Shown: positions 3,935 through 37,204 of the stretch, piece after piece
How the letters are laid out: the number at the start of each line of letters is the position of its first letter
How positions within the stretch are numbered: position 1 is the stretch's first letter
Source: Methylocella silvestris
Lineage (GTDB): Bacteria > Pseudomonadota > Alphaproteobacteria > Rhizobiales > Beijerinckiaceae
Assembly: GCF_002891535.1 (NCBI RefSeq)
Contig: NZ_PDZR01000024.1
Coordinates: 1-59,863 of the forward strand
DNA length: 59,863 nucleotides
Direction: 5' to 3'
Program-made: the position numbers and the translations under genes
The notes under the pieces: model-generated
The model's database searches: none
The model's input: the letters and a program-made list of their open reading frames with translations, nothing else
What the model was told of the DNA's origin: nothing

Positions 3935-4225
3935 CTAACAGCTAGCAAGCTGAGCTGGCGACTTACCATTACGCAAATGAACTGCGAGTGCGTGAAGCGC
4001 TTTCACGCTCAAGATCACGGGATCGCTCTCATCGCGCTCGGCCTCATTGAGGATTGCCTGCGCGAGATAATTTCGAATGGACAGGATCTCTGCGGATCCG
4101 AACTCTTTTAGTTCGCCCTCCAGCATGGCCCAAGCCTGGTCAAACGCCTTCTGACGCACAATCGCACCATTATGCTCAGTTCGGTTAATGGGCACCGCTT
4201 CAACTGCCGGAAGAATGTCGGACAT
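3935..4225 (-). CDS. Hypothetical protein, 96 aa
   Basis: ATG at 4225 is chosen because TGGAG lies 5 bases upstream; an in-frame GTG at 4240 has no such site. The product is a soluble, helix-rich, acidic protein with AFDQAWAMLEGELKEFGSAE in the middle and NEAERDESDPVILSVKALHA near the end. Small conserved proteins of this style are common in Rhizobiales, but I do not recognise a named family. It stands alone between the IS flank and the response regulator gene. Confidence 0.6.
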   Translation of the reverse strand: MSDILPAVEAVPINRTEHNGAIVRQKAFDQAWAMLEGELKEFGSAEILSIRNYLAQAILNEAERDESDPVILSVKALHALAVHLRNGKSPAQLASC

Positions 4226-4444
4226 CAATGCTCCAGTCACATACTTTCGCTAAAAAAAGGTCTTGAAATAGACGTTAAGGCGCGCGTTCAGCGGAACCGT
4301 CATTCCCCGACAGATCGTCCCGCCAGGTTAAGGGCTGAAATTACAGTAGAATTCGCCCATGGCGCGGCAAAGGAGGAAAATCCCCGCTCCCTGTCGATAA
4401 AAGTCCCACATGTCAGGGAAATTACTGACAAAGCGAAGCTTCGG

Positions 4445-5116
4445 CTAAGATTCGCCGAGCCAGCCTTTGCCAGCCGCGTAGCGCACCAGCTGCACCCGGC
4501 TGTCGAAGCCAAGTTTTTCCATCGCCCGCGCCTTATACGTCTCCACCGATTTGACGCTGATGCGGAGTTCGGCGGCGACCGCCTTATGGCTGTGTCCTCC
4601 AGCCGTCAATCGCAAAACCTCTGTTTCCCTCTCGCTGAGGTCAGCAATGGCGCTGAGCGCGACGACGGTTGTCTTTTGTGGTATGCCGCCGAGCACTTTT
4701 CCAGCGATCGCCGGATCGAGATAGATCCCGCCCGCGGCGACGGCTCGTATCGCCCTTATGAGCTCCTCCGCGGCCGAACGCTTCAGAACATAGCCCGCAA
4801 CGCCAAGTTCAAGGAGCTGGCGCAAATATCCGCGATCTTCGTGAACCGTAAGCGCGAGAATCTTGCTCTGAGGACAAGCCGCACGCAAAAGCTCGGCGAC
4901 TTTCGTTCCATTCAGGCCGGGCATCGAAATGTCCAAGATTACGATATCCGGCTTAAGCTCCGTCGCCAAGCTGAGCGCGCTGCGCCCGTCGCAAGCGTCT
5001 CCGACGATCGTCATTTCTGGATCGGCGCCGATCAGCGCCTTGACGCCAGCTAGGACGACAGGGTGGTCGTCGGCGAGAAAAACGCGAAGGGAGATGGGCG
5101 CCGCCGCGGGGCTCAT
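4445..5116 (-). CDS. NarL/FixJ-type response regulator
   Basis: This 223-residue protein has an N-terminal receiver domain (about residues 10-125) with the acidic pair DD at 16-17 and the phospho-acceptor Asp62 in VILDISMPGLNG. A C-terminal LuxR-type helix-turn-helix follows (about 155-215; LSERETEVLRLTAGGHSHKA and SVKSVETYKARAMEKL). Its start overlaps the phytochrome stop in a TAATG junction, so it is translationally coupled to the kinase gene and is its natural cognate partner. It should be phosphorylated in response to red/far-red light and act as a DNA-binding regulator. Its targets are unknown; the PGC next door is a plausible inference. Confidence 0.9.
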   Translation of the reverse strand: MSPAAAPISLRVFLADDHPVVLAGVKALIGADPEMTIVGDACDGRSALSLATELKPDIVILDISMPGLNGTKVAELLRAACPQSKILALTVHEDRGYLRQLLELGVAGYVLKRSAAEELIRAIRAVAAGGIYLDPAIAGKVLGGIPQKTTVVALSAIADLSERETEVLRLTAGGHSHKAVAAELRISVKSVETYKARAMEKLGFDSRVQLVRYAAGKGWLGES

Positions 5117-7431
5117 TAGAGCGGAACATGAATGAAGAGGGTCGCGCCATGCCCGGGGCTGGTTTCAATCTCCAGTTTGCCTCCTACAAGGGACAAGCGC
5201 TCCCGCACGCCAAGAAGCCCAAGGCGGGAGGAGGGCTTTGTCGCCGAGTCGACGTCATCCCAGAGAAAGCCCCTGCCGTCGTCCTCCACGATCATTATCG
5301 CCTCGCTCGACGTCGCCTTCAGAATGACGCCCGCTTTTTTTGCCTGCGAATGCTTGACGACATTCGTGATCGCTTCCTGAAGAATGCGATAGAGCGTCGT
5401 CTCGACAATAGGCGGCAGTCGCCGATCGCTCAAGGCGAGGTGCAAATCAAACTGCAGCCCCGATTTCTGGCCCCATTCCTCCAAGAATTGCTGAATTGCC
5501 GTCTGAAGGCCAAGATCGTCCAGGGCCGTCGGCCGTATTTCCCAGGCGAGGCGATTGACCTCTTTGCCAAGACTCGCCGTCAGGTTTTTGAGATCCGCCA
5601 CCCGTCGCTTGACCGCGAGAGATGAATCGACGTCACGGCCGATACCGTCGAGATCGAGTTGCATTACAGTCAGATATTGCCCCAGACTGTCGTGTAATTC
5701 GCGCGCAATCCGCTGTCGTTCCGCTTCCTGGTTGATGACCGTACTGCGCAAGACTTCGGACAGCTCGGCCTCTACAACAGCCCGGCGATCTGATTCGATC
5801 TTCAGTTGCTGCGCCGTCGTCTCCCATTGACGGATCCGATGGTCGAGCGCCACAAGCAGCGCATCCTGACGCTGGCGCGCACTCTCACGCTCGCGCGCAA
5901 TTTGGTCGACCCGTCGCAGAACAACCTCGAGCAGCGACACCCTGAGCGCCTGCGCGGTCTGAATTGCGACGCTGCTCCACGGGCGCGACTGCAGTCGGAC
6001 TTCCTGCTTCCAAGCGGCGAAGCTCTTTCGCGGCGACAGGCGTTGCCCATCGGGCTCGGCGTTCACCGACTTATCGGGGTTGCCAGCCCACGTCACAGTC
6101 TCGATGATTTCCGGCCGGAACCAGATGACATAATCACGCGGGGTCTTCGACACCGAAAGTGCGATGATTCCGCTAGCCACATCTGCAAAGTCGACGGCGG
6201 GCGCATAAAGCGTAGGCAGCGCCGAGGTATGAAAGACGCCGTCCTCCGCGGTCTCGTTTAGCCAGCCCACGAGCCCGGCCGCCTGATCCGCGTCCGGCGC
6301 CCGTCCGAGATGTGTATAGCGGCCCTCGATCCAGAGCCCCAGTCCATCAGCGGATATAATGTCGAGCAGGCTCGGACGAAGCGTTTCGAGAGCGTCCGCA
6401 AGTTCCCCCACTCCCGCAAGATGCGTCAAAAGTCTGTCGTGCAGGACTTTGGACCGGGATCTAAGCTCGAGCTCGGCGGCAGTGATTTTGGTCTCGAGAA
6501 GGAACGAAGCCATCTGGCTGAAAAGTTCGAGCGCGACGCGCAGGCGATGCGCGACAAAACGCGGCGTCCGTGAATGGCAGGCCACCAGGCCCCACAATTT
6601 GCCGTCGAGAATGATCGACAGCGACATGGTCGCGGCGACACCCATATTTCCCAGATATTCAAGATGAATTGGCGAGACGCTGCGCAATGCGCTCTGGCTC
6701 AGATCGAGCGGGCGCCGTTCCTGCGCGTCGAACACCGGTTCGAGCGGGGCCGGTTCATAGCGCGCGTCGGCGATCAGCCTGATCCAGTTGCGCAGATAGA
6801 GATCGCGGGCCTGCTTTGGAATGTCGGACGCCGGGTAGTGCAATCCGAGGAAAGGCGCCAGCGCCGGGTCTTTAGCTTCCGCGTCGACCGCGCCGCTGCC
6901 ATCGGGCAGAAAGCGGTAGACCATGACGCGGTCGAAATTCGTCGCCTGACGCACGACGTCGGCGACGGATTGGCAGAAAGCCGCGACAGAATCGGCCTCC
7001 TGCACGCTGCGGATCATGGTCTGAACGAGCGCCAGCGAATCATCTACAATGTCCTCATAGACCGGCTCGAATTCGAGAATGAGCGATCCGTCGCTGAAAT
7101 GCGCGGTGACGTCGACGCCACGGTTGCCACCCACGGCGTTCATGCGGAAAGCATGCAACGGGCGGATCATCGCCCCCTCATTATCCAATAAGTCCCGCAG
7201 CCGACCGATCCGCCCGGCCGAGAGCCAGTCTTCGATCGGTTTGCCGATCAGATCGCGCGGCGCAAAGCCGAGGAGCTGTCTTGTATTGCCGCCTGCCTGC
7301 GCCACCGTCAGACTTTCGGCGTCGAGCGCCAGCAAGGCGCCATGGGGCTGAATCGACCCTGGAATATGGATCGGCTCGCGGTCGCAGTTTGACAGGTCCG
7401 CGGCGCCGAACGCGGGCGTCTCGTCATCCAT
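5116..7431 (-). CDS. bphP: Bacteriophytochrome sensor histidine kinase
   Basis: The start is set at ATG 7431 (771 aa), because it overlaps the heme-oxygenase stop by 8 bases and the protein then begins just before the PAS domain. Domain order is PAS (about 15-120), GAF, PHY, HisKA_3-type dimerisation domain and HATPase. Biliverdin-binding Cys16 lies in DLSNCDREPIHIPGSIQPHG. The GAF PASDIP motif and the PHY tongue PRKSF are intact. The H-box is ERQRIARELHDSLGQ, and the ATPase has DDGRGF and GLLGVRERL. The NarX/DegS-type kinase half fits the NarL-type partner downstream and differs from the HWE or classical HisKA modules of many phytochromes. It is expected to be a soluble red/far-red photosensor. 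Confidence 0.93.
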   Translation of the reverse strand: MDDETPAFGAADLSNCDREPIHIPGSIQPHGALLALDAESLTVAQAGGNTRQLLGFAPRDLIGKPIEDWLSAGRIGRLRDLLDNEGAMIRPLHAFRMNAVGGNRGVDVTAHFSDGSLILEFEPVYEDIVDDSLALVQTMIRSVQEADSVAAFCQSVADVVRQATNFDRVMVYRFLPDGSGAVDAEAKDPALAPFLGLHYPASDIPKQARDLYLRNWIRLIADARYEPAPLEPVFDAQERRPLDLSQSALRSVSPIHLEYLGNMGVAATMSLSIILDGKLWGLVACHSRTPRFVAHRLRVALELFSQMASFLLETKITAAELELRSRSKVLHDRLLTHLAGVGELADALETLRPSLLDIISADGLGLWIEGRYTHLGRAPDADQAAGLVGWLNETAEDGVFHTSALPTLYAPAVDFADVASGIIALSVSKTPRDYVIWFRPEIIETVTWAGNPDKSVNAEPDGQRLSPRKSFAAWKQEVRLQSRPWSSVAIQTAQALRVSLLEVVLRRVDQIARERESARQRQDALLVALDHRIRQWETTAQQLKIESDRRAVVEAELSEVLRSTVINQEAERQRIARELHDSLGQYLTVMQLDLDGIGRDVDSSLAVKRRVADLKNLTASLGKEVNRLAWEIRPTALDDLGLQTAIQQFLEEWGQKSGLQFDLHLALSDRRLPPIVETTLYRILQEAITNVVKHSQAKKAGVILKATSSEAIMIVEDDGRGFLWDDVDSATKPSSRLGLLGVRERLSLVGGKLEIETSPGHGATLFIHVPL

Positions 7432-8204: not shown

Positions 8205-8711
8205 TCAATTGGACCCCGACTCGTCCCGGGCGCCCCGACGGGCCTTGTTTTTCGCGGCCCTGGCCGACCATTCGTTCGGAGACGCCGGAGTGTCCTTGAC
8301 CGGCTCCTCCACTTCCCCATCAAAGATATGAACACCGGCGAACTGCTCTCGCAAAAGCTTGATCAATCGATCGACGGCGGGGTCCAGCATCCTGACCCAG
8401 ATCGTCTCCTCCTCCGATCCCAGCTCCCGCATCTCGGCGATCCGGGCGAGAGAGGTCTCTCTGTCTTCCATCATCAGCGAAGCAGCAACGCGCGCCGCGT
8501 TGAGTAGGGCTGAAACGGCGGGATCGCTTTTTGCCTGGATCATCAGGCGAGGAATAATCTGCGTTTCGATCATCCGCCTCAGACGGGCGTTTCGATCGCC
8601 GTCTTCAGCGGTCCCTGCGCCGTTCGCAGATAAGGCGTAGCCGTGCGCCGCATCTGGCCGGTCGCCATGTTGCGCCGGCGCGCGAATTTTCAGGTGCGCC
8701 TCAAATTTCAT
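8205..8711 (-). CDS. AerR/PpaA-like helical cap-domain protein without B12-binding domain
   Basis: This protein of about 168 aa starts at ATG 8711; upstream sequence in the same frame is Arg/Cys-rich and unlikely to be coding. Residues around LRRMIETQIIPRLMIQAKSD match ARTIESEIIPRLMIAHSEE of the AerR/PpaA protein at 32055-33023. EEETIWVRMLDPAVDRLIKL matches its VETIYMDLLAPAARRLGDL. These are the N-terminal segment and first helical-bundle part of AerR. The cobalamin-binding Rossmann half and its His are absent; instead a short Lys/Arg-rich tail follows. It precedes bphO by 106 bases on the same strand. It may be a cofactor-free partner of PpsR or of the phytochrome system, but that is inference. 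Confidence 0.6.
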   Translation of the reverse strand: MKFEAHLKIRAPAQHGDRPDAAHGYALSANGAGTAEDGDRNARLRRMIETQIIPRLMIQAKSDPAVSALLNAARVAASLMMEDRETSLARIAEMRELGSEEETIWVRMLDPAVDRLIKLLREQFAGVHIFDGEVEEPVKDTPASPNEWSARAAKNKARRGARDESGSN

Positions 8712-8947
8712 ATCCCGCACGCGCCGCCTCCCCGGATCGATACGATGATATTCTTCTTGTCCGGCCCCTTTTCCCGAGAACGGTCCCGCGAGCCGAAAGC
8801 CGTCGCAAACTGCCATGTTTCGCGCGATTGGCAAACCTTGATCGCGCGAAAATCGAAATTTCCCAAAGCATAATCCGCAGAGGCGTAGCTTCTCTGCACC
8901 GTTCCTCAGCGCGCCAGCAAATCGCCACTCACAAACCAGCGAAGGCT

Positions 8948-32054: not shown

Positions 32055-33023
32055 ATGCCGACTGTCAATCGGAGACTTCACGACGACTGTTCAGCGCCCG
32101 GGGAGTGCGCCGATCCCCGCGGTTTGTTCTCCTGGGGCGATCTATTCGAAAGCAGGGCGCATAGTTCCGCGCGTATGAGCGTCTCGCCGGACGGGGGCCA
32201 GTTTTCGTCGGCGAAGTCATCGGGACAGAGATCGCGGACAACGCGGCTCGCGCGCACCATCGAGTCGGAAATCATCCCCCGTCTGATGATCGCCCACAGC
32301 GAGGAGACGCCGCGCACGTCGCCGATTGCGCCCCCCTCGCAAATCAAAATGCCTGACGTCGAACGCTTCGCCGAGCTGGTCGTGACGCAGGACGCCGCTG
32401 TCGGCTATTCCTGTGTCGCGGCCGTGCTGGACCAGGGCGTTTCCGTGGAGACGATTTATATGGATCTGCTGGCTCCGGCGGCGCGGCGGCTCGGGGATCT
32501 TTTTGACGAAGACATCTGCTATTTCACGGACGTCTCTATCGGCCTCGCCCGGCTCCACCAGATCATGATGAACCTCGCCGAGTTCATGCGTTCGCGGAGC
32601 TTTCCGCTCGCCGGCGCCCGGCGCGCGCTGCTCGTTTCCTTGTGCGAGGAGAAGCACAATTTCGGGCTCTTCATGGCTGCGAACTTTTTTCGCAGGGCCG
32701 GCTGGGACGTCTTCGGCTGGCCCTTGATGGCGCCGCAGGAGCTCGCCGCCATCGTCTGCAATGAGTCTTTCCATCTTGTCGGGATTTCGGTAAGTTGCAC
32801 CGATCATCTGGATCGTGTGCGGCGGGCTATCAGCATGGCCAGAAAAGCCTCCCGCAACAGGGCCGTAAAGATCATGGTGGGCGGCCTTCCGTTCTGCGAT
32901 CATCCAGAAACCGCCGCCGAACTCGGCGCTGACGCGGCTTCATCGGATGGGCTGCAGGCTGTGCAGATCGCAAACAAGCTGGTCGGGTCCGTCCCGGGCG
33001 CCGGCCGCACCGGGATCTTTTAG
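32055..33023 (+). CDS. aerR: B12-binding PpsR antirepressor (AerR/PpaA)
   Basis: A 322-residue regulator starting at ATG 32055 with GGGAG upstream. The N-terminal signature RTIESEIIPRLMIAHSEE is followed by a helical cap (ETIYMDLLAPAARRLGDLFD) and a C-terminal cobalamin-binding Rossmann domain. The base-off ligand His lies in CEEKHNFGLFMAANFFRRAG, and VMVGGLPFCDHP-like IMVGGLPFCDHPETAAELGA supports the nucleotide-loop pocket. AerR/PpaA antagonises PpsR/CrtJ in response to light via cobalamin. It is 30 bases before ppsR and on the same strand. Confidence 0.93.
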   Translation: MPTVNRRLHDDCSAPGECADPRGLFSWGDLFESRAHSSARMSVSPDGGQFSSAKSSGQRSRTTRLARTIESEIIPRLMIAHSEETPRTSPIAPPSQIKMPDVERFAELVVTQDAAVGYSCVAAVLDQGVSVETIYMDLLAPAARRLGDLFDEDICYFTDVSIGLARLHQIMMNLAEFMRSRSFPLAGARRALLVSLCEEKHNFGLFMAANFFRRAGWDVFGWPLMAPQELAAIVCNESFHLVGISVSCTDHLDRVRRAISMARKASRNRAVKIMVGGLPFCDHPETAAELGADAASSDGLQAVQIANKLVGSVPGAGRTGIF

Positions 33024-33053: not shown

Positions 33054-34496
33054 ATGGACATGGCCGCCGCGCGCACGCAACATCGTCAGTTGAAGGATCC
33101 AAAATCCTCTCTCGGAGCATTGAACGCGTTCGACACGGCGAAATTGATCACCGCCGCATCGGACGTCACGCTCATCCTGGACAACGACGGCCTTATTCGC
33201 GACGCCGCGTTCGCCGCCGACCTCGTCGGGGAGCCTCAGACCCATGATTGGATCGGCCGCCGCTGGCCGGATATTGTTTCGAGCGACAGCAAGACAAAGG
33301 TCGAAGAGCTTCTGCGCGACGCCGCCGCGAAGACAGACCTGCGGTGGCGACACGTCAATCATGTCGCCGCCGGAGCCGCCGCGGATCTGCCGATCCGCTA
33401 TTGCGCCCTTCAGGTTGGCCAGAAAGGCCGCATCGTTGCGCTTGGCCGCGATCTGCGCGCGATAGCCAAATTGCAGCAGCGCCTTTACGACGCGCAGCTC
33501 TCCCTTGAGCGCGAATATTCGCGGCTTCGTCTTTCGGACACGCGCTACAGGCTGATGTTCGAAGTCATTTCCGACGCCGTCCTGATCGTCGACGCTGGAA
33601 CGCTGAAGATCGTCGAGGCCAATCCGGCGGCGCTGCGGCTTATCAACAGGACGACGCGGCGCACCATCGGCCGATCCTTTCTCGATCTTTTCGACGCCGG
33701 CTCAGCGCCGGTCGTCAACGGGCTGATCGCCGCGGTCCGGGTCGCGGGCCGCGCCGACGAGGCGATCGCGCTGCTTGCCGACCGCGCCGGTGAAGCCGCG
33801 ATCTCCGCGACGCTGTTCCGGCAGGAAGCGCTTTCGCATATCCTCGTCCGGCTGACGCCAACCCGCCGAGACAACGCGGCCGAGGCCTTGCCGAAAACAA
33901 AATCGACGCTGCTCCGGATGGTCGAAAAACTGCCGGACGGCTTTGTCGTCACCGGCTCCGACTGGCGCATCATGAGCGCCAATCCAGCCTTCCTCGACAT
34001 GGCAAATCTGGCGAGCGAGGACCAGGCGCGCGCTGAATCTCTTGAGCGTTTCGTAGGACGCGACGGCGTCGCCTTCAACGTGCTGACCTCGCATCTGCGC
34101 GAGCACGGGCTCGTTCGTAATTTTGCAACGACGCTCAACGGCGATTCAGGAACCTCGGAAGAAATCGAGATCACCGCCGTGTCGGCTCCCGACGAGGATC
34201 AGGCCTGCTACGGCTTTACCTTCCGGCCTGTGCGCGGCCGCCTCGTCCAGCCGCCGCAGGCGGGCGGCAGCGGTCCGCGCTCGGTCGAGCAATTGACCGA
34301 ACTGGTCGGCCGCGTGTCTCTGAAGGACATCGTGCGCGAATCGACCGACATCATCGAACAACTCGCGATTAAAGCGGCGTTGCAGCTGACCGGCGACAAC
34401 CGCGCCTCGGCCGCCGACATGCTCGGCATGAGCCGGCAGAGCCTTTATGTGAAGCTGCGGCGCCACAGCCTCGGCGATCTCGATCCCGAATATTGA
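33054..34496 (+). CDS. ppsR: PpsR/CrtJ transcriptional repressor of photosynthesis genes
   Basis: A 480-residue protein. Order: N-terminal PAS-like domain (about 27-130), glutamine-linker helix (LQQRLYDAQLSLEREYSRLR), PAS1 (about 160-265), PAS2 (about 285-390) and a C-terminal Fis-type HTH (ASAADMLGMSRQSLYVKLRR). It should bind paired TGT-N12-ACA boxes and repress bch, crt and puf genes in oxygen. Oddly, the HTH segment reads IEQLAIKAALQLTG. The Cys known there in Rhodobacter (Cys420/424, redox-active) is Ala438 here, and only two Cys remain, in YCAL and ACYG. Confidence 0.95.
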   Translation: MDMAAARTQHRQLKDPKSSLGALNAFDTAKLITAASDVTLILDNDGLIRDAAFAADLVGEPQTHDWIGRRWPDIVSSDSKTKVEELLRDAAAKTDLRWRHVNHVAAGAAADLPIRYCALQVGQKGRIVALGRDLRAIAKLQQRLYDAQLSLEREYSRLRLSDTRYRLMFEVISDAVLIVDAGTLKIVEANPAALRLINRTTRRTIGRSFLDLFDAGSAPVVNGLIAAVRVAGRADEAIALLADRAGEAAISATLFRQEALSHILVRLTPTRRDNAAEALPKTKSTLLRMVEKLPDGFVVTGSDWRIMSANPAFLDMANLASEDQARAESLERFVGRDGVAFNVLTSHLREHGLVRNFATTLNGDSGTSEEIEITAVSAPDEDQACYGFTFRPVRGRLVQPPQAGGSGPRSVEQLTELVGRVSLKDIVRESTDIIEQLAIKAALQLTGDNRASAADMLGMSRQSLYVKLRRHSLGDLDPEY

Positions 34497-37160: not shown

Positions 37161-37204
37161 TGTCAATATAAATTGACACACAAAAATGACAATATAAACT
37201 TACA
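37161..37204. promoter_or_regulatory. Tandem PpsR/CrtJ operator and promoter, crtD-crtE
   Basis: Box 1 is TGT-N12-ACA at 37161-37178, nearly a full palindrome. Box 2 is TGA-N12-ACA at 37187-37204 (one mismatch). Starts are 26 bases apart. Toward crtE, a -35-like TTGACA (37173-37178) and a -10-like TAAACT (37195-37200) are 16 bases apart and lie within the boxes, so repressor binding should block polymerase. Confidence 0.85.

Follow-up and report, generated by a model that had tools for sequence, protein, structure and literature searches.

We identified a gene, here called Q, that encodes a small AerR-like protein without a B12-binding domain and that belongs to the phytochrome locus of Methylocella silvestris, as seen from both gene order and co-occurrence. 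The gene lies on the minus strand (8205..8720) of the 59,863-nucleotide stretch of DNA analyzed, hereafter the window. AerR is understood as a B12 photoreceptor that acts on the repressor PpsR/CrtJ, and the same genome also encodes a full-length AerR with its B12 domain (Pfam; 32055..33023, plus strand) side by side with PpsR (TIGR02040, 429 bits; 33054..34496, plus strand), about 24 kb from Q. A different arrangement, in which a receiver domain is fused to an AerR-like cap, was found directly after bphP in the family containing Hyphomicrobium. Gene order and domain loss show that Q and these fusions are two separate arrangements tying a B12-less AerR alpha1/cap module to phytochrome.

The frame of Q was confirmed at 8205-8711 and gives 168 amino acids from the ATG at 8711. 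A GTG at 8720, nine nucleotides further upstream and preceded by GGAGG, is the likelier start (171 amino acids) because the matching sequence in a second genome of the genus, G003, has an ATG at this position (MRGLK compared with MRDMK in the window). Q had been placed immediately upstream of bphO and bphP by an earlier sequence-only reading, and indeed 106 nt separate its stop codon (8205) from the ATG of bphO (8098). The genes that follow on the same strand are bphO, encoding a heme oxygenase (PF01126; 7424..8098), bphP, encoding a bacteriophytochrome with a HisKA_3 kinase (5116..7431), and a response regulator gene with a GerE (LuxR/NarL-type) output (4445..5116). The start of bphP overlaps the end of bphO, and the start of the response regulator gene overlaps the stop of bphP, so these three genes form a tight unit. 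Q is probably on the same transcript as bphO. A promoter and terminator scan listed nothing within the gap between them. Adjoining the response regulator is a gene for a small protein (101 amino acids; 3935-4240, minus strand) without a Pfam match, which has a counterpart in G003 (L009:9733-10080, minus strand; 39% identity over 67 amino acids) and is possibly a further member of the locus.

The sequence-only reading had aligned two blocks of Q, in order, with the N-terminal region of the window's AerR. This alignment is well above chance: the local score is 101, compared with a mean of 32.8 (standard deviation 5.1) and a maximum of 63 for 2000 shuffles of Q. When its own genome was searched in six frames with Q, only Q itself and the window's AerR (2.8e-5) were returned at E <= 0.001, and the reverse search with AerR recovered Q at 9.1e-5. 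A search with a profile of the AerR N-terminal region and cap, which had been proposed as a check, agrees. The profile, built from 16 segments with Q left out, scores Q at 50.8 bits (an E-value of 2.7e-11 in a database of four million sequences), while the best score among the 4509 shuffles reported, from 5000 given, is 11.8 bits. Alignment of Q with AerR by hhalign has a probability of 97.5 and an E-value of 5.7e-12. The AerR profile A2 does not include Q and has members that match full-length AerR including the B12 half; the choice of these members is partly circular, as most were found through Q. Within Q the profile score comes from alpha1 (23.9 bits alone) and cap helices 1-3 (24.3 bits alone), and both residues 1-39 and the tail score below zero. 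These comparisons support the view that Q is a divergent, probably cobalamin-free derivative of AerR. Q has no match among Pfam families or PDB sequences and a single chance-level row each in NCBIfam, PADLOC and PHROGs (E 0.21, 0.025 and 0.24), and no relative was confirmed when named genomes were scanned with Q.

Q retains the AerR N-terminal helix alpha1 (IETQIIPRLM) and cap helices 1-3. Based on the AerR alignment and profile, the alpha1 block, which includes IETQIIPRLMI, occupies 8535..8594 (minus strand; residues 40-59 of the 168-amino-acid form), and helices 1-3 occupy 8337..8525 (minus strand; residues 63-125). The columns of cap helix 4 are gaps, and the complete four-helix cap is not present. 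Where helix 4 and the Rossmann domain would stand, Q has a polar, partly basic tail with no similarity to AerR (8208..8336, minus strand). Both Pfam B12 families, covering the cap and Rossmann parts, are found in AerR and neither in Q, and the AerR C-terminal profile has no match within the Q frame. The B12-binding half had already been noted as missing; to this we add the loss of helix 4.

Conservation was assessed against 210 AerR frames that also encode the B12 domain in frame, among which W94 is found in 208, F101 in 203, and Q112 in 169. The proline of the IIPRL motif (180 frames) is not universal, and the histidine that follows alpha1 occurs in 130. Q has the proline, arginine and leucine of IIPRL. 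The alpha1 block and helices 1-3 are common to Q and the AerR/PpaA proteins (SAerR, 7te2; LAerR), but Q lacks helix 4, W94 (replaced by leucine), the histidine after alpha1 (replaced by alanine) and the B12-binding Rossmann domain, and it lies beside bphP whereas aerR/ppaA genes lie beside ppsR. Crystallised SAerR (7te2) matches the N-terminal and cap profile from position 65 of the profile onward and not before, which puts the IIPRL block of Q ahead of the SAerR cap; the block may represent an N-terminal extension absent from SAerR. LAerR of R. capsulatus is reported to differ from SAerR by an N-terminal extension (PMC6199135). A structure model of Q from an alignment of 4 sequences has low confidence (mean pLDDT 46.8). 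It is made up of helices only (35-60, 64-80, 84-96 and 101-123), the arrangement that AerR would lead one to expect, but a Foldseek search gave no match at E <= 0.001.

With W94 replaced and neither helix 4 nor a Rossmann domain present, Q is not expected to bind B12 in the known way or to dock on PpsR via helix 4. In AerR the helix 4 residues Thr105, Ser109 and Gln112 have been modelled to meet the linker of CrtJ (PMC9144470). These losses bear on the suggestion, made in the sequence-only reading, that Q occupies the site of AerR on PpsR and competes with it. In its favor, the homology is real and the genome carries the gene for full AerR next to ppsR. However, Q has lost the helix on which the docking residues were modelled (PMC9144470), which leaves the simple form of this suggestion unsupported, and we consider it quite improbable. 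The argument is not final since the published AerR-CrtJ/PpsR interface was also modelled, with the AppA-PpsR structure as a guide (PMC9144470).

Full AerR together with this BphP is found in three of 15 genomes of the genus: that of the window (G000), G009 and G003. A Q-like ORF is located near bphP in exactly these three and is absent from the other 12, so that the co-occurrence survey proposed in the sequence-only reading finds it in every BphP-bearing genome. In four further genomes of the genus, AerR has fainter matches that correspond only to the B12 part of larger frames, and a faint Q match in G007 (E 0.002) lies in a frame with stops and was judged unrelated. Both G000 and G009 contain a second, weaker BphP match elsewhere, and G003, unlike G000 and G009, encodes a member of the methane/ammonia monooxygenase family (PF02461).

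In G009, Q is 93% identical and found in the same gene order. The two copies differ by 14.0 synonymous and 10.0 non-synonymous changes, giving a dN/dS of 0.22 that rests on this one pair with few differences. The same comparison gives 0.27 for aerR, 0.15 for ppsR, 0.04 for bphP and 0.48 for bphO. In G003 the Q-like ORF (L009:9222-9503, plus strand) encodes only 94 amino acids and is located between crtI and the response regulator gene, with the bph genes on the other strand. It matches residues 10-58 of Q (23 of 49 identical), keeping alpha1 without the cap; the histidine after alpha1 that Q has lost is retained. This ORF could be a relict or, alternatively, a minimal alpha1 protein. The truncation of Q relative to AerR, the still shorter form in G003 and the very long, unplaced branch of Q in a tree of caps would all fit a decaying AerR duplicate without function. 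Nevertheless, Q is open and of nearly equal length in two species with dN below dS, only one non-synonymous difference falls within the 44 codons of its tail, and the start context is conserved up to G003. We regard decay as an unlikely account of Q.

Beyond the genus, B12-less relatives were sought by profile in overlapping samples of the order (397 genomes, 75 matched), the class (385 genomes, 27 matched; the second place of G917 was left out) and the family (397 genomes, 133 matched). The order and class loci contain 167 matching frames, 154 with an in-frame B12 domain and 13 without. The latter are Q of G000 (3 loci), Q of G009 (4 loci), the G003 ORF (2 loci), two frameshifted AerRs, one contig-end fragment, and L096, described below. 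The frameshifted copies, L137 and L138, are split AerRs from G754 and G525 with the B12 part in a neighboring frame; neither they nor the contig-end fragment L184 are Q-like. Weak matches to Q in G172, G089, G283 and G127 (second place) fall in frames without AerR similarity, and those in G270, G331, G007, G095 and G137 likewise have none by locus checks only. In the window's own family, none of the 70 matches checked from a longer list (30 and 40 loci) is without a B12 domain, and all 40 of the latter set have one. Among the frames of L186-L256, which comprise the 30 family loci and those of the Hyphomicrobium-containing family, the domain is present in 43 of 58, and the other 15 are seven fusions seen at several loci.

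The first of these fusions, L096 (5753-6643, plus strand), is from G713, on contig NZ_RXIZ01000001.1 of a Hyphomicrobium sp. metagenome assembly. It consists of a receiver domain (PF00072) followed by alpha1 and a complete cap, and then a stop codon. We found seven such proteins over nearly their full length, from four genera, among 103 genomes of the Hyphomicrobium-containing family. The other six are 42-66% identical to L096: L216 (8178-9077, minus strand), L217 (8851-9744, plus strand), L218 (8902-9771, plus strand), L219 (8679-9527, plus strand), L220 (8620-9456, plus strand) and L221 (2011-2880, plus strand). A B12 domain was sought in frame and is absent from all seven. Every fusion directly follows bphP near crt genes, and its first codon shares nucleotides with the stop of bphP (ATGA in six cases and TGATG in one). 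The phytochrome of L096, the one scanned of the seven, has a HisKA kinase. The receiver residues D13, D65, T96 and K117 are invariant; we take these to be the positions expected of a phosphorylated receiver. IIPRL, W94 and Q112 are kept in all seven and F101 and the histidine after alpha1 in six, and the conservation of IIPRL persists even though nothing in these proteins can bind B12 in the known way. In the cap tree the fusions form one group (99/97). Full AerR is encoded beside ppsR in two of the fusion genomes (L125 of G713 and L222 of G1185), and the other five contain a further cap-type match each. A 200-genome sample of the class searched with a fusion profile at E <= 1e-25 gave partial matches, to the receiver only or the cap only, and no full fusion. 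A structure model of the fusion from an alignment of 2 sequences has low confidence (mean pLDDT 52.3), and neither this model nor that of Q carries weight in the argument here.

The fusions resemble Q in having alpha1 and cap without a B12 domain and in lying beside bphP. However, they carry a receiver and a complete cap including helix 4, and Q has neither, with no match to Response_reg. Since Q has no receiver domain, the fusions are an analogy to Q, not orthologues. Their anatomy argues strongly that BphP would phosphorylate the receiver and that the cap would in turn act on PpsR, presumably by contact; the same reading applied to Q is weaker, as Q has no receiver and no helix 4. As independent cases, the fusions support the idea of a B12-less AerR module as a phytochrome output. 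It is possible, though we hold this with some doubt, that AerR alpha1 and cap constitute a portable, cobalamin-independent module for the control of PpsR that was recruited to phytochrome signalling two or more times: in the Hyphomicrobium-containing family in the form of a receiver-cap response regulator whose translation is coupled to that of BphP, and in the window's genus in the form of stand-alone Q. A literature search limited largely to open-access papers brought up neither a receiver-AerR-cap protein nor an AerR-like protein encoded next to bphP, which does not prove that such reports are absent.

There is precedent for an AerR-like protein without B12. Rhodospirillum rubrum has HP1 (Rru_A0625), a protein of 181 amino acids that resembles AerR and has no cobalamin motif; its gene lies beside ppsR, and its deletion abolishes pigment synthesis during dark, low-oxygen growth (PMC10734443). 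Small size, AerR-likeness and the lack of a cobalamin motif are shared with Q, a likeness of description rather than of sequence. However, HP1 is the AerR-type protein of its ppsR locus, whereas Q neighbors bphP, and its genome encodes full AerR as well. The SCHIC domain of AppA (4hh3 and others) also has an AerR-like cap, with only a weak match to the AerR profile (E 0.07 to 0.17), but it has a Rossmann part and binds heme (PMC9144470), and Q has no such part. Control of a PpsR by a phytochrome is known from R. palustris, where BphP1 and PpsR2 form a direct complex (PMC6899989). BphP1 is described as binding PpsR2 itself with a PAS9/HOS output and no kinase, in contrast to the window's BphP with its HisKA_3 kinase and own response regulator. 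LH4 in R. palustris is under a BphP2/BphP3 phosphorelay with receiver proteins, and no AerR part is described in the portion of the report available (PMC6879726).

The sequence-only reading also suggested that Q links phytochrome to PpsR without cobalamin. The phytochrome side of this proposal is supported, both by co-occurrence (three of three genomes) and by the fusions (seven of seven); the PpsR side is a hypothesis. The reading we favor, at somewhat less than even confidence, is that Q is an accessory regulator of the phytochrome branch, a cobalamin-free derivative of AerR that makes contact mainly through alpha1. Q would be made together with bphO, bphP and the response regulator, would meet PpsR or PpsR-bound AerR, and would be tuned by its own amount instead of by B12 photochemistry. 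It may respond to red light. Alpha1 is proposed as the working contact because it is the part that Q and the G003 ORF best share with AerR. In the Hyphomicrobium-containing family, the receiver with alpha1 and the whole cap would be a phosphorylation-controlled version. Counting against an accessory regulator are the missing helix 4 and histidine after alpha1, the lack of a receiver, the very long, unplaced branch of Q in the cap tree, the G003 ORF, which is capless and on the opposite strand, and the failure to find an exact PpsR palindrome near Q.

Instead of acting on PpsR, Q might serve the phytochrome two-component system as a helical adaptor that binds BphP or the NarL-type response regulator and uses an AerR-derived scaffold for this other contact. 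Its location with bphO, bphP and the response regulator gene, roughly 24 kb from ppsR, and the loss of the modelled PpsR-docking helix are consistent with such a role. However, the best-kept part of Q is the alpha1 motif that it has in common with full AerR, and the scans of Pfam, NCBIfam, PADLOC, PHROGs and PDB sequences gave no known adaptor of this kind. We regard an adaptor as somewhat unlikely.

If the module is indeed portable, there would be a red-light pathway from BphP to PpsR parallel to the B12 pathway of AerR. B12-less forms coupled to phytochrome would reveal the part of AerR that makes the regulatory contact and the way in which a single repressor can integrate red and blue light. 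The receiver-cap fusions open this idea to direct testing, as they come with a kinase encoded next to them, a predicted target, and a receiver whose conserved positions are those expected.

An exact PpsR palindrome (TGTN12ACA) was sought near Q in the window and none was found. At the edge of the photosynthesis gene cluster, beyond the bph genes, is a transposase-type helix-turn-helix protein (PF01527; 2897-3442, minus strand). The window as a whole contains seven exact palindromes of the PpsR type, compared with a chance expectation of 2.07. Four of the seven, at 37161, 39335, 39361 and 58029 (plus strand), are located before or between crtD/crtE, bchC and genes near 58.0 kb, as read from the ORF list.
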